Source: Halobacillus salinarum
GTDB lineage: Bacteria > Bacillota > Bacilli > Bacillales > Halobacillaceae
Length of the DNA: 64,000 nucleotides
NCBI RefSeq assembly: GCF_022919095.1
Contig: NZ_CP095073.1
Location: forward strand, 3,968,001-4,032,000
Direction: 5' to 3'
Numbering within the stretch: position 1 is the first letter of the stretch; the number at the start of each line of letters is the position of its first letter. Positions 7,424 through 64,000 of the stretch are shown piece by piece. A program made the position numbers and the translations under genes. The notes under the pieces were generated by a model, which worked only from the letters and a program-made list of their open reading frames with translations, did no database searches and was not told the origin of the DNA.

Positions 7424-8515
7424 TTACTGAAGCTTTCCTCTTGCTTCAATGGATACTTTTTCTACTTCCATTTCACCATTATTCAAATACACAAAATTAT
7501 GCAGGTTGATGGTACTGCAAATATGATTGGGAATAATTCTAACCTGGTCTCCGATTTGAAGGTTGGAATGTTCGGTTAGAATCACTCCATGCTCCTCATT
7601 CATTCGTGCAAACACACAATCTGAGAAATTTATTATCTCGCCAAAACCCTCTAAATTAAGCGGGGCATGACCTGGCTGTACGTCGGTTGCAAACGTTTTG
7701 CTGCCCCCATCGATGACCGCACGTTTATTAGTGGGACGGCTTACCACCGTAGTCACCACTTGTGCAGCACAATGCTGCCAATCACTGACTCCTAATTTCA
7801 CTTGCATGGAATCATTAAATACGTAAGTTCCTGGACGAATTTCTGTAACCCCTTTTACTGTAGAAACAGAAGAAGCAGTTGGTGTAGAGCCTGCACTGAT
7901 GTCCTTTACTTCAATACCCGCCCGCTTCAGCTGAGCGGCTGCCTCTACCATGAGTTCACCTTCCTCTATTCCAGCCTGCTGTAAATCTGTGGTCGATTTC
8001 CCTTTGAATACCGGTCCTTTAAATGTAAAAATTCCTTGCAGCGACAGATACTCCATCTCATTGATCTTTCCAGCTAACTCGGTAACTTGATGAAGATCTA
8101 CTCCTGTACGTGCCAACCCACTATCAATTTCTAATCGGACTTGCAGATGCTGTTGAGCCTTCTCGGCTCCTTGATTAAGTGCTCTTGCTCCTTCGATACT
8201 ATCTACACCAAGGAGCAAATTCTTTAAGTTTTTATTGAGCTCGCATACCTCTTCCACTTTGTCCTCCGTGACGATTGGATAAGCGATAAAGATATCGTCT
8301 ATGCCATAACTGGCCATTACTTTTGCCTCTGAGATTTTTGCAACCGTGATCCCCACTGCTCCCTCAGCAATCTGCATTTTGGCAATAGATGGAATCTTAT
8401 GCGTCTTAATGTGGGGTCTCAAAGCAACTTGATTCCTGCTTGCTAATTGACTCATTTCTCTAATATTTTCTCGTAAAATTTTTTCATCAATTTCTATATA
8501 AGGTGTACCAGGCAT
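7424..8515 (-). CDS. PLP-dependent D-serine dehydratase / D-threonine aldolase-type enzyme (DSD1 fold)
   Basis: Fold-type III PLP enzyme acting on D-amino acids, likely deaminating D-serine or cleaving D-3-hydroxy-amino acids. The 363-residue protein has the alanine-racemase-like barrel with LRPHIKTHK (residues 32-40) containing the PLP lysine, the phosphate-binding SAGSTPTASS region, and a C-terminal beta domain ending with PNHICSTINLH. The metal pair is H331 and C333 (HxC), the zinc signature of eukaryote-type D-serine dehydratases. The pair is HxD in the studied D-threonine aldolase. It sits 12 bases from the D-aminoacylase, which would supply its substrate. The two activities cannot be separated from sequence alone. 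Confidence 0.82.
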   Translation of the reverse strand: MPGTPYIEIDEKILRENIREMSQLASRNQVALRPHIKTHKIPSIAKMQIAEGAVGITVAKISEAKVMASYGIDDIFIAYPIVTEDKVEEVCELNKNLKNLLLGVDSIEGARALNQGAEKAQQHLQVRLEIDSGLARTGVDLHQVTELAGKINEMEYLSLQGIFTFKGPVFKGKSTTDLQQAGIEEGELMVEAAAQLKRAGIEVKDISAGSTPTASSVSTVKGVTEIRPGTYVFNDSMQVKLGVSDWQHCAAQVVTTVVSRPTNKRAVIDGGSKTFATDVQPGHAPLNLEGFGEIINFSDCVFARMNEEHGVILTEHSNLQIGDQVRIIPNHICSTINLHNFVYLNNGEMEVEKVSIEARGKLQ

Positions 8516-10828: not shown

Positions 10829-10964
10829 CTTCTTCCAATCTGAAAATATTAGTTTTTTTTGAATATTTAATCTACATAAACTCTACGCTGTGAATAATCA
10901 TTTGTCAACAAACTTTTTTTCATCCTAACAAAAAGTTTGTTTGGTAACCATCTAAAATTGTCAC

Positions 10965-10999
10965 TAAAAAAAGAACGATTCGATTAGGAATCGCTCTTG
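10965..10999 (-). terminator. Rho-independent terminator of the gabT/permease operon
   Basis: On the minus strand AGAGCGATTCC pairs with GAATCGTTCT across a short TAATC loop and is followed by a run of T (10965-10971). It lies about 35 bases beyond the permease stop. Confidence 0.85.
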
Positions 11000-11032
11000 T
11001 AATTAGACGCTTTTATTACATTCATTACTCGC

Positions 11033-38706: not shown

Positions 38707-38815
38707 AAAAAAATCCTCCCCATTCATTGGGAAGGATTAGTCATACCTGTGCAACAGCAAACAAGCTATTCGTTAATAGCTTAACCGTATATAGATAATG
38801 GGGCAGACTAATCCT
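38707..38815 (-). promoter_or_regulatory. Transcription attenuator of the ABC-F gene
   Basis: A terminator stem AATCCTTCCC / GGGGAGGATT (38738 to 38712, one wobble pair) followed by TTTTTT ends 29 bases before the ABC-F start. Its 5' arm overlaps GACTAATCCT (38742-38733), a perfect 10-base match to AGGATTAGTC upstream (38815-38806). The two pairings exclude each other, so they form an antiterminator/terminator switch. A small hairpin AAGCTATT-AACG-AATAGCTT sits in the antiterminator loop. Confidence 0.85.
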
Positions 38816-38843
38816 ATTTCGCAAAGATTTGAAATATATGATT

Positions 38844-38891
38844 TCAACCTTTATAAAAAATAAGATTAGTTACGCATCGGCCACCCATCAT
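38844..38891 (-). CDS. Putative leader peptide of the ABC-F gene
   Basis: A 15-codon reading frame, MMGGRCVTNLIFYKG, begins just after an AAGAAGGG ribosome site and close to the predicted transcript start. It ends 29 bases before the antiterminator's 5' arm. Ribosomes slowed here by an antibiotic could bias the leader towards antitermination. Translation is inferred only from the ribosome site and position. Confidence 0.55.
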   Translation of the reverse strand: MMGGRCVTNLIFYKG

Positions 38892-38914
38892 CCCTTCTTG
38901 TTTTGATTAAAGAT

Positions 38915-46222: not shown

Positions 46223-48277
46223 TCACCCCCTTTCAAATGATTTCTGGTTTTGTTGTAAATTAAGTTGTACTGCTTCAGGTGTTTGAGAATGAATAATTCT
46301 TGCTTTTCTATCTTCATTAGTCACAAGTTTTGTCAATTGAGTAAGCGGCCGAATATGCAATTTTCGATCAATGGCTGCTACGATAAAGACCAAATGGATC
46401 CTTTCTCCCTGGAAATCTACGCCTTCCTCTATCTTTAATAAGCTCATTGCTAGTTCATGCACGCCGTCTTCAGGTGAAGCGTGAGGAATTGCCACGTGGG
46501 GACTAATTACAATATAGGGATCCTTCTTGTTATTTAACATAGCCTCTAAATAACTCTCCGAAATGCTCCCATTATCAATTAATGGTTTGGAAGCAACTGT
46601 TAGTGCTTCTTCCCACGAGTCCACTGTCTTTTTAAGAACAATAGTATCCTTCCTTATTAAGTCAAGAAGATTCATTCTACTAGGAGTTATCGTTTGTTTA
46701 AGGGAGGATTGATCGTCCCGATTCAAATAATTTTGTAAGTCCTTTAATAATTCATCTTCTTCATCAATCCTTGAATGACTTTTAATGATATCCATGACTT
46801 CATTCATATCAATTTGACTGGATAAATAACCATTAGTCTCAAGCATCACCTGTTTCTTAAGACGTCGCTTATCCTCTTCATTTAAAAATGCTTTCGTTAA
46901 GAATAACTTTTTCTCTGTTTCTAAATAACTTGACGCAAAAACTAAATCGTAATCCAAGTCATAATTTTCAAATTCGCGAATAGATAAGGAATCTAATAAA
47001 ATAAATTCAGGAAACAATTCTTTCAATTCATTAAACATTAACCTAGAGACGGATACTCCTTGAGGACATACGACAATCGCTTTTACTTTTTTTTCGATAC
47101 TTTTCCCCTGTCTTTTCATCCACCCGCCAATAAGCATCGTAATATAGGTGATTTCACTTTCAGGTATTTCGGTTCCGATAAGCTTTTCTAATGATCCAAT
47201 TGACCTTTTAACTAAATGGTTTAATTCTTTAAATTCGTTGCTCTCAGGCAGTTGGAACGTAAGGGTGGTATCTGTCAGATTGTATTTGATTCGATAGTAC
47301 GCAGGTTTAATATGTTGAAAAAGACTGTTTAATAACTGCTGCCGATCTTGAAAATATATACAGGCATTCTTTTCAAACATATGAAGGACTTCATTAATCG
47401 CGGGCATCAAGTTAGGTATTGGTTCTTCTGTGATTAATTCAGATGAATGAACGTTTGTTGTTAAAAGGTGTAAAGTAATAAACAACCGCTCAGCAATCGG
47501 GAATGACCGGTATTCACAAAAGATCTCTTCAGAAGCTTGATACTCCTTTGTATCTACTAGATCTTCATAGTTGATCGGATTTGTGATGATCTCTTTTCCT
47601 TGGTTTACTCGTCTAAGAATGAGTATGATGATGTAAGGCATCATTTCTAATTTTTCATCTGTAAATTTTATATTTAATGTGTCCTCCACTTTTTCAATAC
47701 GCTTTATGAATTTATGAATATCACCTTCATTAATTTGGGTAATTTCATTCAATTTTTCTTTAATGCTATTCAATTGCAACACTTCGTGCATGATCCCAAT
47801 AAATAGTTTTCTTATTTGAATTTCTTTACCTTTTAAGCGGTAACCGTGTTTTCTTGTATATTGGATGGAGAGCTCATATTCATTCAAGTAATCTTGCGCT
47901 TGTCTTAAATCATTTAAAATTGTATTCTTGCTGACTAGCAGCTCGCAGGTAAAATGGTTGAGCGAAAGTTCTTCTTGAGAGCTTACGACCATCAAAATTA
48001 AGATATAAACACGCTGCTGCTCCGTTAGCACTTGCGAAGGCTTCATAGAATTTTCACCATGAAGGGCAATAAATACATCTTCACTAATAAGAAAATGACC
48101 TTGTCTTGTTCTTTCTATTACAGGAAGGCTGTTTGACATCAGCCAGTCATTAAGCTTTTGGATACTATAACCAAGCTGTCGGCTTGTCAAATTTAATTTC
48201 TTTTCCAGATCGATACTCTTAATACTTGGATTACTGAGTAGTTCATCAATAATTTTCTTACTTCTGATGCTTATCAT
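46223..48277 (-). CDS. PRD-containing transcriptional activator with EIIB- and EIIA-like domains (MtlR/LicR type)
   Basis: A 684-residue PTS-controlled activator: N-terminal helix-turn-helix domains (about 1-150), two PTS regulation domains (about 180-395, regulatory histidines in the FITLHLL and HIKPAYYRIKYNL regions), a Gat-like EIIB domain (about 405-490, cysteine in VVCPQGVSVSRLM) and a C-terminal EIIA domain (about 540-680, histidine in VAIPHASPEDG). Phosphorylation by HPr and the partner EII components tunes activity. The start at 48277 follows AAGGAGGCGC. It heads the operon and most likely activates it in response to the transported polyol. Confidence 0.92.
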   Translation of the reverse strand: MISIRSKKIIDELLSNPSIKSIDLEKKLNLTSRQLGYSIQKLNDWLMSNSLPVIERTRQGHFLISEDVFIALHGENSMKPSQVLTEQQRVYILILMVVSSQEELSLNHFTCELLVSKNTILNDLRQAQDYLNEYELSIQYTRKHGYRLKGKEIQIRKLFIGIMHEVLQLNSIKEKLNEITQINEGDIHKFIKRIEKVEDTLNIKFTDEKLEMMPYIIILILRRVNQGKEIITNPINYEDLVDTKEYQASEEIFCEYRSFPIAERLFITLHLLTTNVHSSELITEEPIPNLMPAINEVLHMFEKNACIYFQDRQQLLNSLFQHIKPAYYRIKYNLTDTTLTFQLPESNEFKELNHLVKRSIGSLEKLIGTEIPESEITYITMLIGGWMKRQGKSIEKKVKAIVVCPQGVSVSRLMFNELKELFPEFILLDSLSIREFENYDLDYDLVFASSYLETEKKLFLTKAFLNEEDKRRLKKQVMLETNGYLSSQIDMNEVMDIIKSHSRIDEEDELLKDLQNYLNRDDQSSLKQTITPSRMNLLDLIRKDTIVLKKTVDSWEEALTVASKPLIDNGSISESYLEAMLNNKKDPYIVISPHVAIPHASPEDGVHELAMSLLKIEEGVDFQGERIHLVFIVAAIDRKLHIRPLTQLTKLVTNEDRKARIIHSQTPEAVQLNLQQNQKSFERG

Positions 48278-48327
48278 CACTCTTTGCGCCTCCTTGTAAA
48301 ACATAGTATCACCTCAACCGAACTAAT

Positions 48328-58578: not shown

Positions 58579-58613
58579 GCAAAAGAAGCAGCTGACAAAT
58601 GTCAGCTGCTTCT
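58579..58613 (-). terminator. Rho-independent terminator of the glpP gene
   Basis: Perfect 14-base arms AGAAGCAGCTGACA / TGTCAGCTGCTTCT with a 2-base turn, then TTTTG on the minus strand. The stem begins at the glpP stop codon. Confidence 0.85.
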
Positions 58614-59179
58614 TATAAATACCAAACTACATTATTTGTGGAAGAAATCGCGACGGCTCCTGCCTGAATGGCATTTACCACATCTTCCTTCTCGCAAACA
58701 AGTCCGCTTGCGATGAGCGGAATATTCACTTTTTCCTTTACCCACCCGATGGCCTTTGGCATCATACCTGGCAGAATTTCTATAAAGTGGGGGTTGGATT
58801 GAGCGATTTGCTTATCCATACTGCGGAAGGAAAACGAGTCCACTAAGAAAAACCGGTGAATCGTATAGAATCCGTAGTCCCGGGCTGCATGAACCATATG
58901 AGCTTTTGTGCTGATAATTCCATCCACATCTGTATTTTCTTTTAAAAATTGAAGAGCAACCTCTTTATTCGATGTTCCTTCGAGCAGGTCGATATGAACA
59001 AACGCCAGCTTATCATGATTCTTTACCTTTTCCACAATTTCGCCAACATTGATGAGATCACTGTTTAATATAAAAACCACGTGACATTCCGTTTGAATCG
59101 CTTCATCGAGGCCCTTATCATCTTTAACTGCAGCAATAATCGGATTTTCTTCCAATGCCTGCTCCACATTTTTCCTCAT
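58613..59179 (-). CDS. glpP: GlpP-type antiterminator protein
   Basis: RNA-binding antiterminator that, with glycerol-3-phosphate, lets RNA polymerase read through leader terminators of glp genes in Bacillus. The 188-residue TIM-barrel-like protein is full length and conserved in style: NPIIAAVKDDKGLDEAIQ, VFILNSDLINVGEIVEKVK, FVHIDLLEGTSNKEVALQFL, DGIISTKAHMVHAARD, FRSMDKQIAQSNPHFIEILPGMMPKAI and PLIASGLVCEKEDVVNAIQAGAVAISSTN. It starts after GAGGAGAAAATT. It faces a leader with a terminator/antiterminator pair, but the genes beyond are not glpFK or glpD. It may be the cell's only GlpP or a diverged paralogue. Confidence 0.93.
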   Translation of the reverse strand: MRKNVEQALEENPIIAAVKDDKGLDEAIQTECHVVFILNSDLINVGEIVEKVKNHDKLAFVHIDLLEGTSNKEVALQFLKENTDVDGIISTKAHMVHAARDYGFYTIHRFFLVDSFSFRSMDKQIAQSNPHFIEILPGMMPKAIGWVKEKVNIPLIASGLVCEKEDVVNAIQAGAVAISSTNNVVWYL

Positions 59180-59297: not shown

Positions 59298-59326
59298 TTG
59301 ACAGTCAGACAATAGACTCATATACT
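59298..59326 (+). promoter_or_regulatory. Strong sigma-A promoter of the SDR/kinase/oxidase operon
   Basis: TTGACA (59298-59303), a 17-base spacer and TATACT (59321-59326). Transcription should start near 59333, leaving a leader of about 100 bases before the SDR gene. Confidence 0.85.
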
Positions 59327-59337
59327 ATTAACAGCTA

Positions 59338-59400
59338 AAGTTACTAGAGCGGAGAGAAAAGTAACTTCCCTTGGGGAAGTCTGCTTTTCTCTCTTTTTTT
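59338..59400 (+). promoter_or_regulatory. Leader antiterminator/terminator switch, putative GlpP target
   Basis: Terminator: GAGAGAAAAG (59352-59361) pairs with CTTTTCTCTC (59384-59393), inner ACTTCCC (59364-59370) pairs with GGGAAGT (59374-59380), and TTTTTTT follows (59394-59400). Antiterminator: AAGTTACT (59338-59345) pairs perfectly with AGTAACTT (59360-59367), using bases of the terminator stem. The pairings exclude each other. The adjacent glpP gene suggests the protein that stabilises the antiterminator. Confidence 0.85.
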
Positions 59401-59434
59401 GTGCTATAAAACCAACCTGAGGGGTGTACTGAAA

Positions 59435-60211
59435 ATGGATATCACGGATTTCTCAATGGATTTCTTTTCTTTGAAAGGACAGACCGCTCTTGTTACAGGA
59501 GGAAATTCCGGTCTTGGTCGAGCCTTTTCACTCGCCCTGGCAAAAGCCGGGGCCAATATCTTCATCCCTAGTCTTACAGAGGATGATGGTACGACGAAAG
59601 ATTTAATTGAAAATGAAGGAACACACATGGAATTTATGCAAGTAGACATTACCGAAGATGGAGCAGCCAAACGAGTCATAGAGCGATGCGTAGAAACATT
59701 GGGCGCGCCTGACATCGTCGTCAACAGCGCCGGACTGAATACCGTCGCTGCTTTTGAAGATTTTGGCCGTGAAAAATGGGATCCTATGCTGCAAGTCAAT
59801 TTAACAGCTGCTTTTGAAGTCAGCCACGAAGCTGCAAAAACGATGATCCCAAAACGCCGCGGGAAAATCATTAACATCTGTTCCATGTTTTCCTTTCACG
59901 GAGGTCAAGGGTCCCCGGCGTATGCAGCAAGCAAGCACGGCATAGCAGGGCTCACAAAGGCGTATTGTGATGAACTTGCCCAATATAACATTCAAATTAA
60001 CGGGATTGCTCCTGGCTATTATGCGACAGAGCTGACCACTGAAACAAGAAATAATCCAGAGGCGAATAATAAAGTGCTTGCTCATACTCCTGCTAACCGC
60101 TGGGGAGAACCGATGGATTTAATGGGTGCTGCCATCTTCCTTTCCAGTCGTGCTTCTGACTATGTGAACGGCCATATTTTAGCTGTTGATGGGGGCTACC
60201 TCGTCCGCTAG
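59435..60211 (+). CDS. Short-chain dehydrogenase/reductase (KduD/gluconate-5-dehydrogenase-like)
   Basis: NAD(P)-dependent oxidoreductase of about 258 residues. Cofactor motif TALVTGGNSGLGRAF, NNAG-equivalent VNSAGLN, catalytic SMFSFHGGQGSPAYAASKHG (Ser, Tyr, Lys) and the C-terminal VNGHILAVDGGYLVR. Closest in style to 2-deoxy-D-gluconate 3-dehydrogenase (KduD) and gluconate 5-dehydrogenase. The ATG at 59435 follows GAGGGGTG; an upstream GTG in frame lies inside the terminator T tract and is not used. First gene after the antitermination leader; probably oxidises a polyol or keto-polyol. Confidence 0.88.
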   Translation: MDITDFSMDFFSLKGQTALVTGGNSGLGRAFSLALAKAGANIFIPSLTEDDGTTKDLIENEGTHMEFMQVDITEDGAAKRVIERCVETLGAPDIVVNSAGLNTVAAFEDFGREKWDPMLQVNLTAAFEVSHEAAKTMIPKRRGKIINICSMFSFHGGQGSPAYAASKHGIAGLTKAYCDELAQYNIQINGIAPGYYATELTTETRNNPEANNKVLAHTPANRWGEPMDLMGAAIFLSSRASDYVNGHILAVDGGYLVR

Positions 60212-60246: not shown

Positions 60247-61686
60247 ATGAAAAAACGTTACATTATCGGGATTGACGGAGGTTCCCAAAGTACAAAAGTA
60301 GTAATCTTCGACACACACGGAAAGGTAGTAAGCGAAGGTACACAGCCCCTTAAGCCCATGAACCTGCCTCAACCGGGAATTGTTGAACACCCGGATGACG
60401 ATTTATGGGAATCACTTTGTGAAGCAAGTAAACAGGCAATGGAGAGCTTCCCTGGCAGGAAAGAGGATATTATCGGAGTTGGATTGTGTACGATTCGATT
60501 CGTCCGCTGTCTTCTAAAAAAGGATGGCACGCTCGCCTCCCCTGCTATGAGCTGGATGGATGGACGCGTGTCAAAACCCTACGAACATTTGGATGAACAA
60601 GTCTCATATGTGACTACTTCATCCGGCTATATCACCCACCGTCTGACCGGGCAGCTTCATGATTCTGCTGGGAATTACCAGGGGATGTGGCCCATTGACA
60701 CAGATACTTGGGACTGGAGTGAAGATGAAGCAGTCTTCCGCACTTACCAAATCCCCCGTGAGATGCTGTTTGATTTAAAACTTCCCGGAAATGTCTTAGG
60801 TCAGATTACAAAGGAAGCAGCAAGAGAGACCGGGATGCCTGAACAGCTTCCAGTGATTGCAACGGCAAATGACAAAGCTGTAGAAGCCTTAGGGGCAGGA
60901 GTGTTATCTGAAAGCACCGCTTTAATTTCTTTAGGCACATATATTGCTGGAATGATTACCGGCCATGAGAACCCTAAAGAGACGAATCATTTTTGGACGA
61001 ACTTTGCCGCCATCCCTAATGAATATCTTTATGAAAGTGAAGGGATTAGACGCGGCATGTGGACGGTCAGCTGGTTTAAAGAACTTCTCGGAGACGAATT
61101 ATCCAAAAAAGCAGCAAGTCTTCACTTAAGCCCGGAGGAATTTTTAAACAATGAAGCAGTTGAAAAAGTCCCTGCTGGAAGTGATGGGCTGATGACCGTT
61201 CTGGACTGGCTTTCCCCTGCAGATGAACCGTATAAAAAAGGAATGATGCTCGGCTTTGACGGCCGTCATACGCGAGCACATATCTACCACTCTATTTTAG
61301 AAGGCATTGCGCTGACGATGAAGACGAATGTCGACAACATGATACAAGAACTAGATACAGAGCTTGATCAGATCGTTGTTTCCGGCGGTGGAGCCAAAGG
61401 GGATCTCATGATGCAGTTGTTTGCTGATGTGTTTGGACTCCCGGCTATGAGAAACAAGGTCAAAGGCTCTGCCAGCTTAGGAGCTGCGATCAACACAGCT
61501 GTCGCCCTGGAGATCTATCCTAGCTATCATGAAGCGATAGAAGAGATGGTGGACGTAGATGATACATTTTCCCCACATCCGGAAAATCACGAGTTCTATA
61601 CAAAGATGAATGAGGAAGTGTACCAGCAAATCTCGAACCACACCGATGGAATCTTAAAAAAAGCGCATTCCTTTTTTAACGGATAA
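60247..61686 (+). CDS. FGGY family carbohydrate kinase (xylulokinase/glycerol-kinase superfamily)
   Basis: ATP-dependent kinase of 479 residues phosphorylating a sugar or polyol. N-terminal domain opens YIIGIDGGSQSTKVVIFD (phosphate 1 motif). The usual catalytic aspartate is in SPAMSWMDGR. The C-terminal FGGY domain has LISLGTYIAGMITG, DQIVVSGGGAKGDLMMQLFADVFG and GSASLGAAINTAVALEI. No DNA difference to its neighbours. It lies 35 bases after the SDR gene and 40 before the flavoenzyme gene, each with good ribosome sites. The substrate cannot be named. If GlpP controls this operon by sensing a glycerol-3-phosphate-like compound, this kinase may make it. Confidence 0.88.
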   Translation: MKKRYIIGIDGGSQSTKVVIFDTHGKVVSEGTQPLKPMNLPQPGIVEHPDDDLWESLCEASKQAMESFPGRKEDIIGVGLCTIRFVRCLLKKDGTLASPAMSWMDGRVSKPYEHLDEQVSYVTTSSGYITHRLTGQLHDSAGNYQGMWPIDTDTWDWSEDEAVFRTYQIPREMLFDLKLPGNVLGQITKEAARETGMPEQLPVIATANDKAVEALGAGVLSESTALISLGTYIAGMITGHENPKETNHFWTNFAAIPNEYLYESEGIRRGMWTVSWFKELLGDELSKKAASLHLSPEEFLNNEAVEKVPAGSDGLMTVLDWLSPADEPYKKGMMLGFDGRHTRAHIYHSILEGIALTMKTNVDNMIQELDTELDQIVVSGGGAKGDLMMQLFADVFGLPAMRNKVKGSASLGAAINTAVALEIYPSYHEAIEEMVDVDDTFSPHPENHEFYTKMNEEVYQQISNHTDGILKKAHSFFNG

Positions 61687-61726: not shown

Positions 61727-63169
61727 ATGCCATTAACAAAAGAGCAAATCGTGAAAGACGTAAAAGCGATCATACCGGAGGAACAAGTCATTACAGACGA
61801 GGCTGTGCTCAAAGATAACAGCGTCGACCGTTTCCGAAAATATGAAACCATTCACGGTATTTATACCCAGCCGCTCCCTGCAGCTGTCGTAAAGGTCAAA
61901 ACCGCTGGAGAAGTTTCCCAGCTTTTAAGCTACATGAATGAAAACAACATTAACGCTGTGCCAAAGACAGGGGGATCTGCTACAGAAGGCGGCCTTGAAA
62001 CGGCGGTAGAAAACTCCTTAGTCATTGACGGCTCAAGCATGAACAACATCGTTGATATCGATCCGTACGACATGCTTGCCACCGTGAAATGCGGAGTACC
62101 ACTGGAAGTACTTGAAGACCAATTGCGTGAACAAGGCTTAACGACCGGTCATTCTCCACAGTCTAAACCGCTTGCCCAAATGGGCGGCTTAGTAGCCACT
62201 CGAAGCATCGGCCAGCTTTCTACACTGTACGGCGGTATTGAAGATATGGTCGTAGGTGTAGAAGCGGTATTCCCAAATGGAGAAATTACAAAAATTAAAA
62301 ATATCCCGCGCCGGGCTGCTGGTCCTGATATCCGCCATGTGATCATCGGAAACGAAGGAGCCCTCTGCTACATCACTGAAGTCACTGTTAAGATTTTCAA
62401 ATATAAACCAGAGAACAACCAGTACTATGGGTATCTGCTCGATGATATGAAAACGGGGTTTGAGATTTTACGCGAAGTGATGGTGGAAGGCTATCGTCCG
62501 TCAGTTGCCCGCCTGTATGATCCGGAAGACGGAGCGGATCACTTTGATTTTTCTAAGGGCAAATGCGTGCTGATCTTCATGGCAGAAGGTCCAAAGCCTA
62601 TTGCTGAAGCTACCGGACAAGCGATTGAGGACATCGTTAGTAAATACGGAGAGAGTGAACGTGTGGACAGCAGTCTCATCCAAAATTGGTTTGAAAACTT
62701 AAACTGGGATCCGGCGAAAGTCGTTGAAGAACGAAAAGAAATTAAGGAAACCAACAACATCGGTTTTACAACAGAAGTTTCTGGATCCTGGGGTGTCATT
62801 CACGACATCTATGACCGCTGCATTAAGAGAGTCCGCGAAGAAATTCCGAATATTACGATGCTCGGCGGCCACTCCTCCCACAGCTATATGAATGGCACAA
62901 ATATGTACTTCGTTTATTATTATGACCTGGTTGATATCAAGCCTGAAGAAGAAATCACGAAGTACCATTACCCGATTAACAAAATCATTGTAGAAGAGAC
63001 CATTAATGCCGGCGGGTCGATGGTCCACCACCATGGTGTCGGCAAACACCGGACACCATGGATTAAGGAGGAATACGGTTCTTCCTATTACATCCTGGAA
63101 ACGTTGAAAAAAGCCTTTGATCCGAATGGCATTATGAACAAAGGCACGATCTTTCCACTGGAAGATTAA
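61727..63169 (+). CDS. FAD-linked oxidase, alkyl-DHAP-synthase-like (FAD_binding_4 / FAD-oxidase_C)
   Basis: Flavoenzyme of 480 residues of the vanillyl-alcohol-oxidase fold. FAD binding domain (about 50-230): VPKTGGSATEGGLE, TTGHSPQSKPLAQMGGLVATRS and PDIRHVIIGNEGALCYITEVTVKIF. The substrate domain ends with GGSMVHHHGVGKHRTPW, the triple-histidine motif of alkyldihydroxyacetonephosphate synthases, and FDPNGIMNKGTIFP. Similar proteins also include D-lactate and glycolate oxidases, but the HHHGVGK motif favours the AGPS-like branch, whose substrates are DHAP derivatives. A strong terminator follows. Third gene of the antiterminated operon. Confidence 0.85.
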   Translation: MPLTKEQIVKDVKAIIPEEQVITDEAVLKDNSVDRFRKYETIHGIYTQPLPAAVVKVKTAGEVSQLLSYMNENNINAVPKTGGSATEGGLETAVENSLVIDGSSMNNIVDIDPYDMLATVKCGVPLEVLEDQLREQGLTTGHSPQSKPLAQMGGLVATRSIGQLSTLYGGIEDMVVGVEAVFPNGEITKIKNIPRRAAGPDIRHVIIGNEGALCYITEVTVKIFKYKPENNQYYGYLLDDMKTGFEILREVMVEGYRPSVARLYDPEDGADHFDFSKGKCVLIFMAEGPKPIAEATGQAIEDIVSKYGESERVDSSLIQNWFENLNWDPAKVVEERKEIKETNNIGFTTEVSGSWGVIHDIYDRCIKRVREEIPNITMLGGHSSHSYMNGTNMYFVYYYDLVDIKPEEEITKYHYPINKIIVEETINAGGSMVHHHGVGKHRTPWIKEEYGSSYYILETLKKAFDPNGIMNKGTIFPLED

Positions 63170-63368: not shown

Positions 63369-64000
63369 ATGAATAAGCTAAAAAGTCATATGATACGTCC
63401 AACGGTATTTTTACCAGCTTTCATCTTGTTATTGATTACGATTGTGTTAAACTTTGTCAGTTATGACTGGTTTTTAAAAGTTACGACGGCAGCTCAAAAC
63501 TTTATGACCCACGAAATCGGCTGGGTATTCAGCCTTGCCGGGGTTACTTGTGTGATTCTAGTTATTCTTGCTTATTTCTCACCGCTCGGAAACATCAAAA
63601 TCGGAGGAGAGGAAGCAAAACCATTATTGAAGCGGAAAACATGGTTTGCTATCACTTTAACGACAACGATCGCTGCTGGCATCTTATTTTGGGGAACAGC
63701 CGAGCCGATTTCTCACTTAACCTCCCCTCCAAAATCGCTCGGGATTGAGCCGATGTCCACAGAAGCGGCAAAATTTGCGATGGAAACACTCTATCTTCAC
63801 TGGACATTTATCCCTTACGCCTTCTACTCACTCCCTACGATTGTATTTGCATTCGCATACTATAATATGAAACGTTCCTTTAGTGTAGGTTCGCAAATAT
63901 CACCGGCACTAAGAAAATACAACCAGGACAAAATCAATGTAGTCGTCGATGCGGTGATTTTATTTGCCGTTGCTGCTGCGATTTCCTCTTCCTTTGGGAC
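63369..64000 (+). CDS. BCCT family transporter (partial, C-terminus beyond the right edge)
   Basis: Sodium-coupled importer of zwitterionic trimethylammonium-type solutes (betaine/carnitine/choline group). The visible 210 residues contain the first five or so helices of about twelve, starting MNKLKSHMIRPTVFLPAFI, with the BCCT hallmark ILFWGTAEPISHL and the pattern FAMETLYLHWTFIPYAFYSLP. The frame runs open to the window edge. The start follows AAGGAGGAAAAAT. It is separated from the flavoenzyme gene by a terminator but carries a cre box, so it likely belongs functionally to the same pathway rather than to osmoprotection. Confidence 0.88.
   Translation, partial: MNKLKSHMIRPTVFLPAFILLLITIVLNFVSYDWFLKVTTAAQNFMTHEIGWVFSLAGVTCVILVILAYFSPLGNIKIGGEEAKPLLKRKTWFAITLTTTIAAGILFWGTAEPISHLTSPPKSLGIEPMSTEAAKFAMETLYLHWTFIPYAFYSLPTIVFAFAYYNMKRSFSVGSQISPALRKYNQDKINVVVDAVILFAVAAAISSSFG

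Follow-up and report, generated by a model that had tools for sequence, protein, structure and literature searches.

The leader at positions 59298-59400 of the window (the window being the whole 64,000-nucleotide stretch of Halobacillus salinarum DNA that was analysed) very probably acts as the RNA component of a dedicated antitermination switch whose protein component is encoded by the divergent gene beside it, a YgcP-type paralogue of the glycerol regulator GlpP. The leader contains mutually exclusive helices, these helices covary, the leader is paired with the paralogue, and both are separate from the glycerol GlpP and its leaders. These observations indicate a division of the GlpP family into paralogues, each with RNA targets of its own.

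The leader, its neighbouring regulator and the proposed switch

The features on which the argument rests are the following.

58583-58614, minus strand: terminator-like hairpin of 14 pairs at the end of the GlpP2 gene
58613-59179, minus strand: GlpP-family antiterminator of YgcP type (GlpP2), 188 amino acids (PF04309, 216.5 bits; E. coli YgcP, 59%)
59298-59326, plus strand: promoter TTGACA-17-TATACT, 11 of 12 consensus matches; similar boxes are visible before the leader in several relatives
59338-59345, plus strand: antiterminator 5' arm AAGTTACT, conserved core 59340-59345 (sequence reading and covariation)
59346-59359, plus strand: loop of the antiterminator, carrying GAG boxes at 59347-59349 and 59354-59356 and proposed to bind the protein
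59360-59367, plus strand: antiterminator 3' arm AGTAACTT, common to the terminator (sequence reading and covariation)
59352-59393, plus strand: intrinsic terminator (folding and covariation)
59352-59361 with 59384-59393, plus strand: outer terminator stem of 10 pairs, GAGAGAAAAG with CTTTTCTCTC
59364-59370 with 59374-59380, plus strand: inner terminator stem of 7 pairs, ACTTCCC with GGGAAGT
59394-59400, plus strand: run of seven T (sequence reading)
59435-60211, plus strand: short-chain dehydrogenase (SDR) of YgcW type (PF00106; E. coli YgcW, 67.6%)
60247-61686, plus strand: FGGY-family kinase of YgcE type (PF00370 and PF02782; E. coli YgcE, 53.9%)
61727-63169, plus strand: AGPS-like FAD enzyme of YgcU type (E. 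coli YgcU, 68.5%; PDB matches)
63369-63998, plus strand: start of a BCCT transporter gene (PF02028) of 516 amino acids that continues past the window (full reading frame in L004)

Elsewhere in the window, positions 38707-38909 on the minus strand match Rfam RF02452 (Bacillus sRNA ncr1575) at 136 bits.

An earlier note on this DNA had described a near-consensus promoter, an antiterminator overlapping a terminator of 10 + 7 pairs with seven T, and a downstream SDR, FGGY kinase and AGPS-like flavoenzyme; all of these were recovered, the hairpins base by base, and the BCCT transporter gene was found to follow as well. The promoter is the best of four promoter-like sites in 2 kb, and only its high score counts in its favour, because shuffled sequences are expected to hold a mean of 3.8 such sites with at least 9 of 12 matches. 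Folding of 59325-59402 returns the terminator as the minimum free energy structure (-30.3 kcal/mol, z = -4.7, with 0 of 200 shuffles as good); the antiterminator hairpin alone reaches -5.9 kcal/mol, and an RNA ending at 59374, in which the 3' arm of the terminator has not yet been made, folds as the antiterminator hairpin (-6.3). The core of this hairpin is its inner six pairs, GTTACT/AGTAAC (the next pair outward is often broken), and its 3' arm falls within the 5' arm of the terminator. The leader therefore has the form of a GlpP-family target, a terminator overlapped by an alternative hairpin directly after a promoter. Because the terminator is far stronger than the alternative hairpin, the finished leader, if unaided, should terminate, and read-through would need something that holds the hairpin.

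The only Pfam match of the divergent gene is G3P_antiterm (PF04309), well above the cut-off of 27 bits, and its product, GlpP2, aligns with E. coli YgcP over 180 residues. An AF2 model (pLDDT 91) has 3kts as its best PDB match (TMq 0.88-0.90) and shows a TIM barrel. Its fold and its target leader suggest that GlpP2 is a GlpP-family antiterminator, which would act by binding RNA and permitting read-through.

According to the switch that we propose, RNA polymerase would start near 59333, a position read from the promoter, and make the leader; with no signal present the strong terminator would form, and transcription would end at the T run, ahead of the SDR gene. As long as synthesis has reached only the 5' part, the RNA could fold into the GTTACT/AGTAAC hairpin, with the two GAG boxes in its loop; the paralogue, once liganded, would bind this loop, hold the hairpin and deny the terminator its 5' arm, and the operon of SDR, kinase, FAD enzyme and transporter would then be read. 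Both the binding of the leader RNA by the paralogue and the control of the paralogue by a ligand are inferred. By analogy with glycerol kinase and glycerol-3-phosphate in the glp system, the ligand is probably a phosphorylated intermediate produced by the operon's own FGGY kinase.

A regulator of the BglG/SacY (PRD) type, using the hairpin as its RAT, could in principle do the same, and the architecture is alike, since RAT elements are also hairpins of about 30 nt that overlap a terminator. The letters GTTACT resemble a RAT sequence, and a putative PRD regulator gene, so judged by eye, is located at 46223-48304, at a distance of 11 kb. Regulators of the BglG/SacY family consist of CAT-RBD and PRD domains, whereas the gene adjoining the leader matches PF04309 only, so that no BglG/SacY-family regulator was found next to the leader; moreover, the leader tracks the YgcP-type paralogue across phyla (see below). 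We regard the involvement of a PRD protein as extremely improbable.

Two paralogues and two leader classes

The genome encodes two PF04309 proteins above the family cut-off, GlpP2 and the glycerol GlpP, which are 33% identical; the gene of the latter lies upstream of glpF-glpK-glpD, away from the window. A tree built from 104 members of the GlpP family groups the YgcP type in a single clade of 66 that includes GlpP2 (SH-aLRT 99, a support value from a quick method with no bootstrap, given with the program's warning that long branches such as L157, L164, L104 and others may be misplaced). Nearly all members of this clade (63 of the 66) adjoin at least two of the three module enzymes, that is, the SDR, the FGGY kinase and the FAD enzyme; the other three are L116, which adjoins the FAD enzyme and a BCCT transporter only, L134 and L169. 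GlpP2 thus belongs to the YgcP group both by its clade, shared with E. coli YgcP, and by the SDR-FGGY-FAD module alongside it, and the window system lies off the glp branch, without glpF, glpK or glpD as neighbours and without a canonical glp leader.

Among the residues that set 63 YgcP-type proteins apart from 13 of glp type are H108 (Q in the glp type), S117 (A) and C162 (R), and changes such as the last make it plausible that the ligand of GlpP2 is a new one. The name GlpP, which the earlier note had given to the divergent gene, holds for the protein family and not for the glycerol regulator; of its suggestion of a GlpP paralogue with a new ligand, the paralogue with its own leader is well supported, and the new ligand is plausible by inference.

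Further GlpP-like proteins were seen beside other genes. In the loci inspected, a third group (35-39% identity) adjoins a HAD-type gene, in some cases with an ABC transporter, and not the module; in seven loci from other genomes of the order (L095, L096, L097, L100, L101, L102 and L103) such a paralogue, 35-38% identical to GlpP2, stands beside a HAD-type phosphatase gene, and in L095, L096, L100 and L101 also with an ABC transporter operon, the gene names being assigned by eye. This group was set aside on account of these neighbours. Genome G009 encodes another second GlpP (L084, 5134-5673), 35-39% identical to both types and with an ABC ATPase gene as neighbour; a window-type leader was looked for in this genome and not found.

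The leaders divide as the proteins do. In the same genome and in its relatives the glpD leader reads AAGUUAAU...GGUC-GGAGANNNGGAGA-GACC, followed by a terminator. Two covariance models were built, R1 from 37 window-type leaders and R2 from 22 canonical glp leaders. In the H. salinarum genome R1 finds the window leader at 79.5 bits (next match 27.5 bits) and does not detect the glpD leader, while R2 finds the leaders of glpD (79.7 bits) and of a second glpF-glpK operon (41.9 bits; next match 17.3 bits) and does not detect the window leader. When R2 was run on 28 loci it returned the two glp leaders only, and none in the 26 others, 25 of which carry a YgcP-type gene. As the two models do not cross-detect, each paralogue has a leader class of its own. 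The comparison with the glp leaders of the same genome, which the earlier note had called for, accordingly places the window leader in a class separate from those of glpD and the second glpFK copy. Its proposal that the leader joins the glycerol GlpP regulon is not supported, in view of the same result and of the separate GlpP that accompanies glpFK-glpD; this second glpP with glpFK, which the note had named as a sign against its idea, does exist, and it refines the idea into one of paralogues each with its own leader class.

It has nevertheless to be considered that the window leader is a further target of the glycerol GlpP, answering glycerol-3-phosphate, with the paralogue redundant or regulating elsewhere. 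Both leader classes carry two GAG-type boxes before the terminator, the window leader keeps CGGAGAGA as does the glpD leader of its own genome, and both proteins keep conserved barrel residues such as D64, G87, R109, D114, G138, G159 and G174. Against this stand the failure of either model to find the other leader class, and a scan of the order (below) in which no leader above 38 bits was reported among 388 genomes without the paralogue, though 354 of all 397 genomes have a GlpP-family protein. We consider control by the glycerol GlpP very improbable.

Covariation bears on the window-type helices in particular. In the 37 leaders 97.3% of antiterminator cells are paired, the outer core pair being GC in 29, AU in 8 and broken in none, and the terminator shows changes on both sides in 11 of 16 pairs with 90.9% of cells paired. 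A wider set, in which 99 matches (five of them partial and on the other strand) gave 85 distinct rows in an alignment fitted to the terminator, has both-side changes in 6 of 7 antiterminator pairs (95.2% of cells paired, the outermost pair broken in 23 cells) and in 12 of 16 terminator pairs (91.6% paired). In this set, AU is replaced by GC in the antiterminator of Listeria and actinobacteria, an example of a compensatory change, and sliding the antiterminator partners against each other destroys the both-side-change signal. The number of antiterminator pair types is not above that of shuffles (486 of 500 as high for the 37 leaders, 303 of 500 for the wider set). The shared arm changes together with both of its partners, as seen in the E. 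coli ygcW leader, where the inner pair of the antiterminator is C-G and a matching C is present in the terminator. From these alignments we take both alternative helices to be under selection.

The second GAG box is present in 83 of 83 distinct full leaders of the R1 alignment and the first in 75 of 83, the two lying 7-8 nt apart in 69 of the 75 leaders with both, although the seed leaders had been selected by a pattern that fixes most arm letters and also contains GAGA-like letters. Among 21 stretches upstream of glpD, 17 contain GGAGA-3-GGAGA, three (L068, L075 and L083) a variant with boxes 8-9 nt apart, and one (L097) neither; upstream of glpF the motif occurs in 3 of 32. An 8-nt box spacing is found in 21 of the 22 glp leaders, largely by choice, because 20 of these rows had been picked by that pattern. 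Support for the antiterminator stem is weak in the canonical glp leaders, where 89.2% of cells are paired and 18 of 500 shuffles score as high. A pair of GAG-type loop boxes, spaced by about 8 nt and preceding the terminator, may in our view be what GlpP-family proteins recognise in common; the RNA target of this family, for which no Rfam model gave a match here, would then have a shared recognition element.

The glp genes of H. salinarum show two features of their own. In L003, a terminator-like hairpin without the two-box loop lies between glpP and glpF (about 8306-8355), so that control of the first glpFK copy may differ. In the same locus the glpD reading frame looks interrupted near its start (about 10926-11020): the listed frame begins only at 10988, and upstream of it, in a different frame, there is a start that has a ribosome-binding site; an assembly error could account for the interruption.

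Co-occurrence of leader and paralogue across bacteria

With ten aligned YgcP-type proteins, GlpP2 among them, as query, a locus search returned 69 named loci. These come from halophilic bacilli, Listeria, clostridia, Cohnella, Serratia, Pantoea, Erwinia and Klebsiella, as well as from Saccharopolyspora, Prauserella, Streptomyces, Arthrobacter and others, and from an Anaerolineaceae MAG. R1 (full length, E of at most 0.01) finds leaders in 59 of 65 YgcP-clade loci from four phyla, namely 58 of 64 named loci and E. coli K-12, and in 0 of 5 loci outside the clade. The search of relatives for the leader beside glpP, another check suggested by the earlier note, thus found it accompanying the YgcP-type paralogue and the enzyme module. 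The best match exceeds 38 bits in 45 of the 58 loci; the remaining 13 (five Listeria, seven actinobacteria and Enterococcus canis) score 25.7-37.0 bits, and because such scores are no better than those of stray genome matches, these loci rest also on the position beside the module and on the hairpin. In six clade loci (L122, L134, L151, L155, L160 and L169) R1 has no match at E 0.01; under looser settings all of these but L134 yield weak candidates, of 16.9-25.1 bits. Since 27 of the 58 loci had contributed a training row to R1, finding those leaders again is by construction, and the independent part of the evidence lies in the misses in genomes that lack the paralogue.

Two genome samples, scanned with stricter filters, supply such genomes. 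In the family sample 7 of 44 genomes have the paralogue (G001 and G007 being assigned it through the contigs of L108 and L107), and the leader is present in all seven at 72.4 bits or more, while the 37 genomes without the paralogue give weak matches in 8, at 27.4-35.7 bits. In the order sample 9 of 397 genomes encode a protein at least 59% identical to GlpP2 (the next best is 39%), and all nine have the leader at 52.9 bits or more; the 388 others yield only two matches at E 1e-4, of 38.0 and 37.1 bits. In nine genomes reached through the named loci, 14 of 15 R1 matches lie inside the cluster, the one stray scoring 25.4 bits. The distribution of the YgcP-type system is wide and patchy and looks horizontal. 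Some clusters have two or three copies of the leader, before different genes (SDR, BCCT or FAD enzyme), as in L089/L112 (Salibacterium), L111 (Geosporobacter) and the clostridial MAGs L127 and L144.

The Klebsiella locus led to the ygc cluster of E. coli K-12, whose YgcP, YgcU, YgcW and YgcE are 59%, 68.5%, 67.6% and 53.9% identical to the window proteins. R1 finds the window-type leader twice in K-12, before ygcW (2900298-2900367 of the MG1655 record) and before yqcE (2900500-2900567), where the E. coli annotation has no leader between the two genes; YgcP itself is annotated, from homology, as a putative anti-terminator. Among 5426 E. coli genomes, ygcP-like DNA is present in 5068, and the ygcW-yqcE intergenic DNA is matched in 5018, over at least 80% of the stretch in 4998. 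A CRP site between ygcW and yqcE has been predicted (PMC1794230) and is among genomic SELEX targets (PMC3105977). A published list of RNA-switch candidates in E. coli (PMC4448311) names ygcW, but the candidate stretches are 4249 and 3499 bases distant from that gene and so are not this leader. PMC2965389, on premature terminators, mentions none of ygc, yqcE, glpD, glpF and glycerol, and a literature search that drew mostly on open-access papers returned no study of ygcP function or of the leader and no experiment on the protein or the RNA. An orphan E. coli cluster (ygcP, ygcU, ygcW, yqcE and ygcE) hereby gains a concrete candidate mechanism of control with two mapped leaders.

The co-occurrence also bears on the idea that the leader is a riboswitch or another attenuator, responding to a small molecule, a tRNA or a leader peptide without any GlpP-family protein, with the paralogue uninvolved. 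Mutually exclusive, covarying helices would look alike under such control, but no Rfam family matches the window leader (at gathering scores) or the leaders of the E. coli locus (E up to 0.1), the antiterminator is just about 30 nt long, and the leader co-occurs closely with the paralogue in four phyla, so that we hold this explanation to be highly improbable.

The controlled operon and its relation to known systems

The enzymes downstream of the leader allow some tentative statements on its purpose. The best PDB sequence matches of the FAD enzyme are 2uuu and 4bby, both alkyl-DHAP synthase (AGPS), and its AF2 model (pLDDT 83, uncertain with pLDDT below 50 at residues 436-438 and 157-171) has 4bby as best match (TMq 0.82). 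R262, Y394 and H434-436, equivalent to AGPS R419, Y578 and H615-617, which we take to be functional residues, are kept in 63 of 63 aligned homologues of more than 50% identity; R419 and Y578 mutants of AGPS appear among the matched PDB titles. The structure also resembles Ldh of the Ldh-EtfAB complex (7qh2), and the FAD enzyme gene has ETF-domain genes close by in Sporomusa, Geosporobacter and E. coli, and in other genomes where they were named by eye. The ETF neighbours and the likeness to Ldh point to electron transfer and so weaken a purely redox-neutral AGPS chemistry, suggesting that the enzyme may have a redox role.

The transporter is of the BCCT or OpuC-like ABC type in halophilic bacilli, where the leader can precede either, and hints at a quaternary ammonium substrate there; MFS transporters occur instead in E. 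coli, Listeria and one actinobacterium. For the bacilli, their BCCT/OpuC transporters led us to set aside a sulfonate substrate, which may apply where the MFS transporters occur.

Taken together, the AGPS-like enzyme, SDR and FGGY kinase suggest that a 1-substituted glycerol could be oxidised, phosphorylated and split to DHAP. On this pathway reading the module would take up a glycerol substituted at C1, the SDR would oxidise C2, the FGGY kinase would yield 1-substituted DHAP, and the AGPS-type flavoenzyme, working in the catabolic direction, would split off the substituent and leave DHAP; the YgcP protein would sense the phosphorylated intermediate, and the substituent, in the halophilic bacilli, would contain a quaternary ammonium group, for example in a glyceryl ether betaine left from betaine lipids. 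In its joint form, that of a widespread, antitermination-controlled catabolic module, found in most E. coli, that yields DHAP from C1-substituted glycerol, with YgcP sensing a phosphorylated intermediate and a quaternary ammonium substituent in the halophilic bacilli, we regard this reading as doubtful. The leader could itself serve as a reporter, as its read-through would reveal the module's metabolite and help to find the substrate.

Several known systems invite comparison. AGPS is the best match of the FAD enzyme in sequence and structure, with key residues kept, but the window enzyme stands in a catabolic-looking operon with a kinase and a transporter, and adjoins ETF genes in some genomes. 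BglG, SacY and LicT with their RAT hairpin likewise use a protein-held hairpin overlapping a terminator, but their protein family is unrelated to the PF04309 protein. The E. coli ygcN-ygcE cluster has a closely related regulator, the same three enzymes, and the leader before ygcW and yqcE; it differs in adding the ETF-domain proteins YgcQ and YgcR, YgcN, YgcO and two MFS transporters, and in lacking a BCCT transporter there. In B. subtilis, GlpP with glycerol-3-phosphate acts on the promoters of glpD, glpFK and glpT (PMC9604022). The two systems have in common a PF04309 protein, a promoter followed immediately by a terminator in the 5' UTR, and controlled genes that include those of an FGGY kinase and a flavoenzyme, and the glp leaders examined here share two GGAG boxes before the terminator. 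In contrast to the glp system, the window has a different paralogue, its own leader class with a longer and strongly covarying antiterminator stem, and no glycerol genes under its control. The window leader is that of a YgcP-type paralogue, a variant of GlpP antitermination and not a glycerol GlpP leader.
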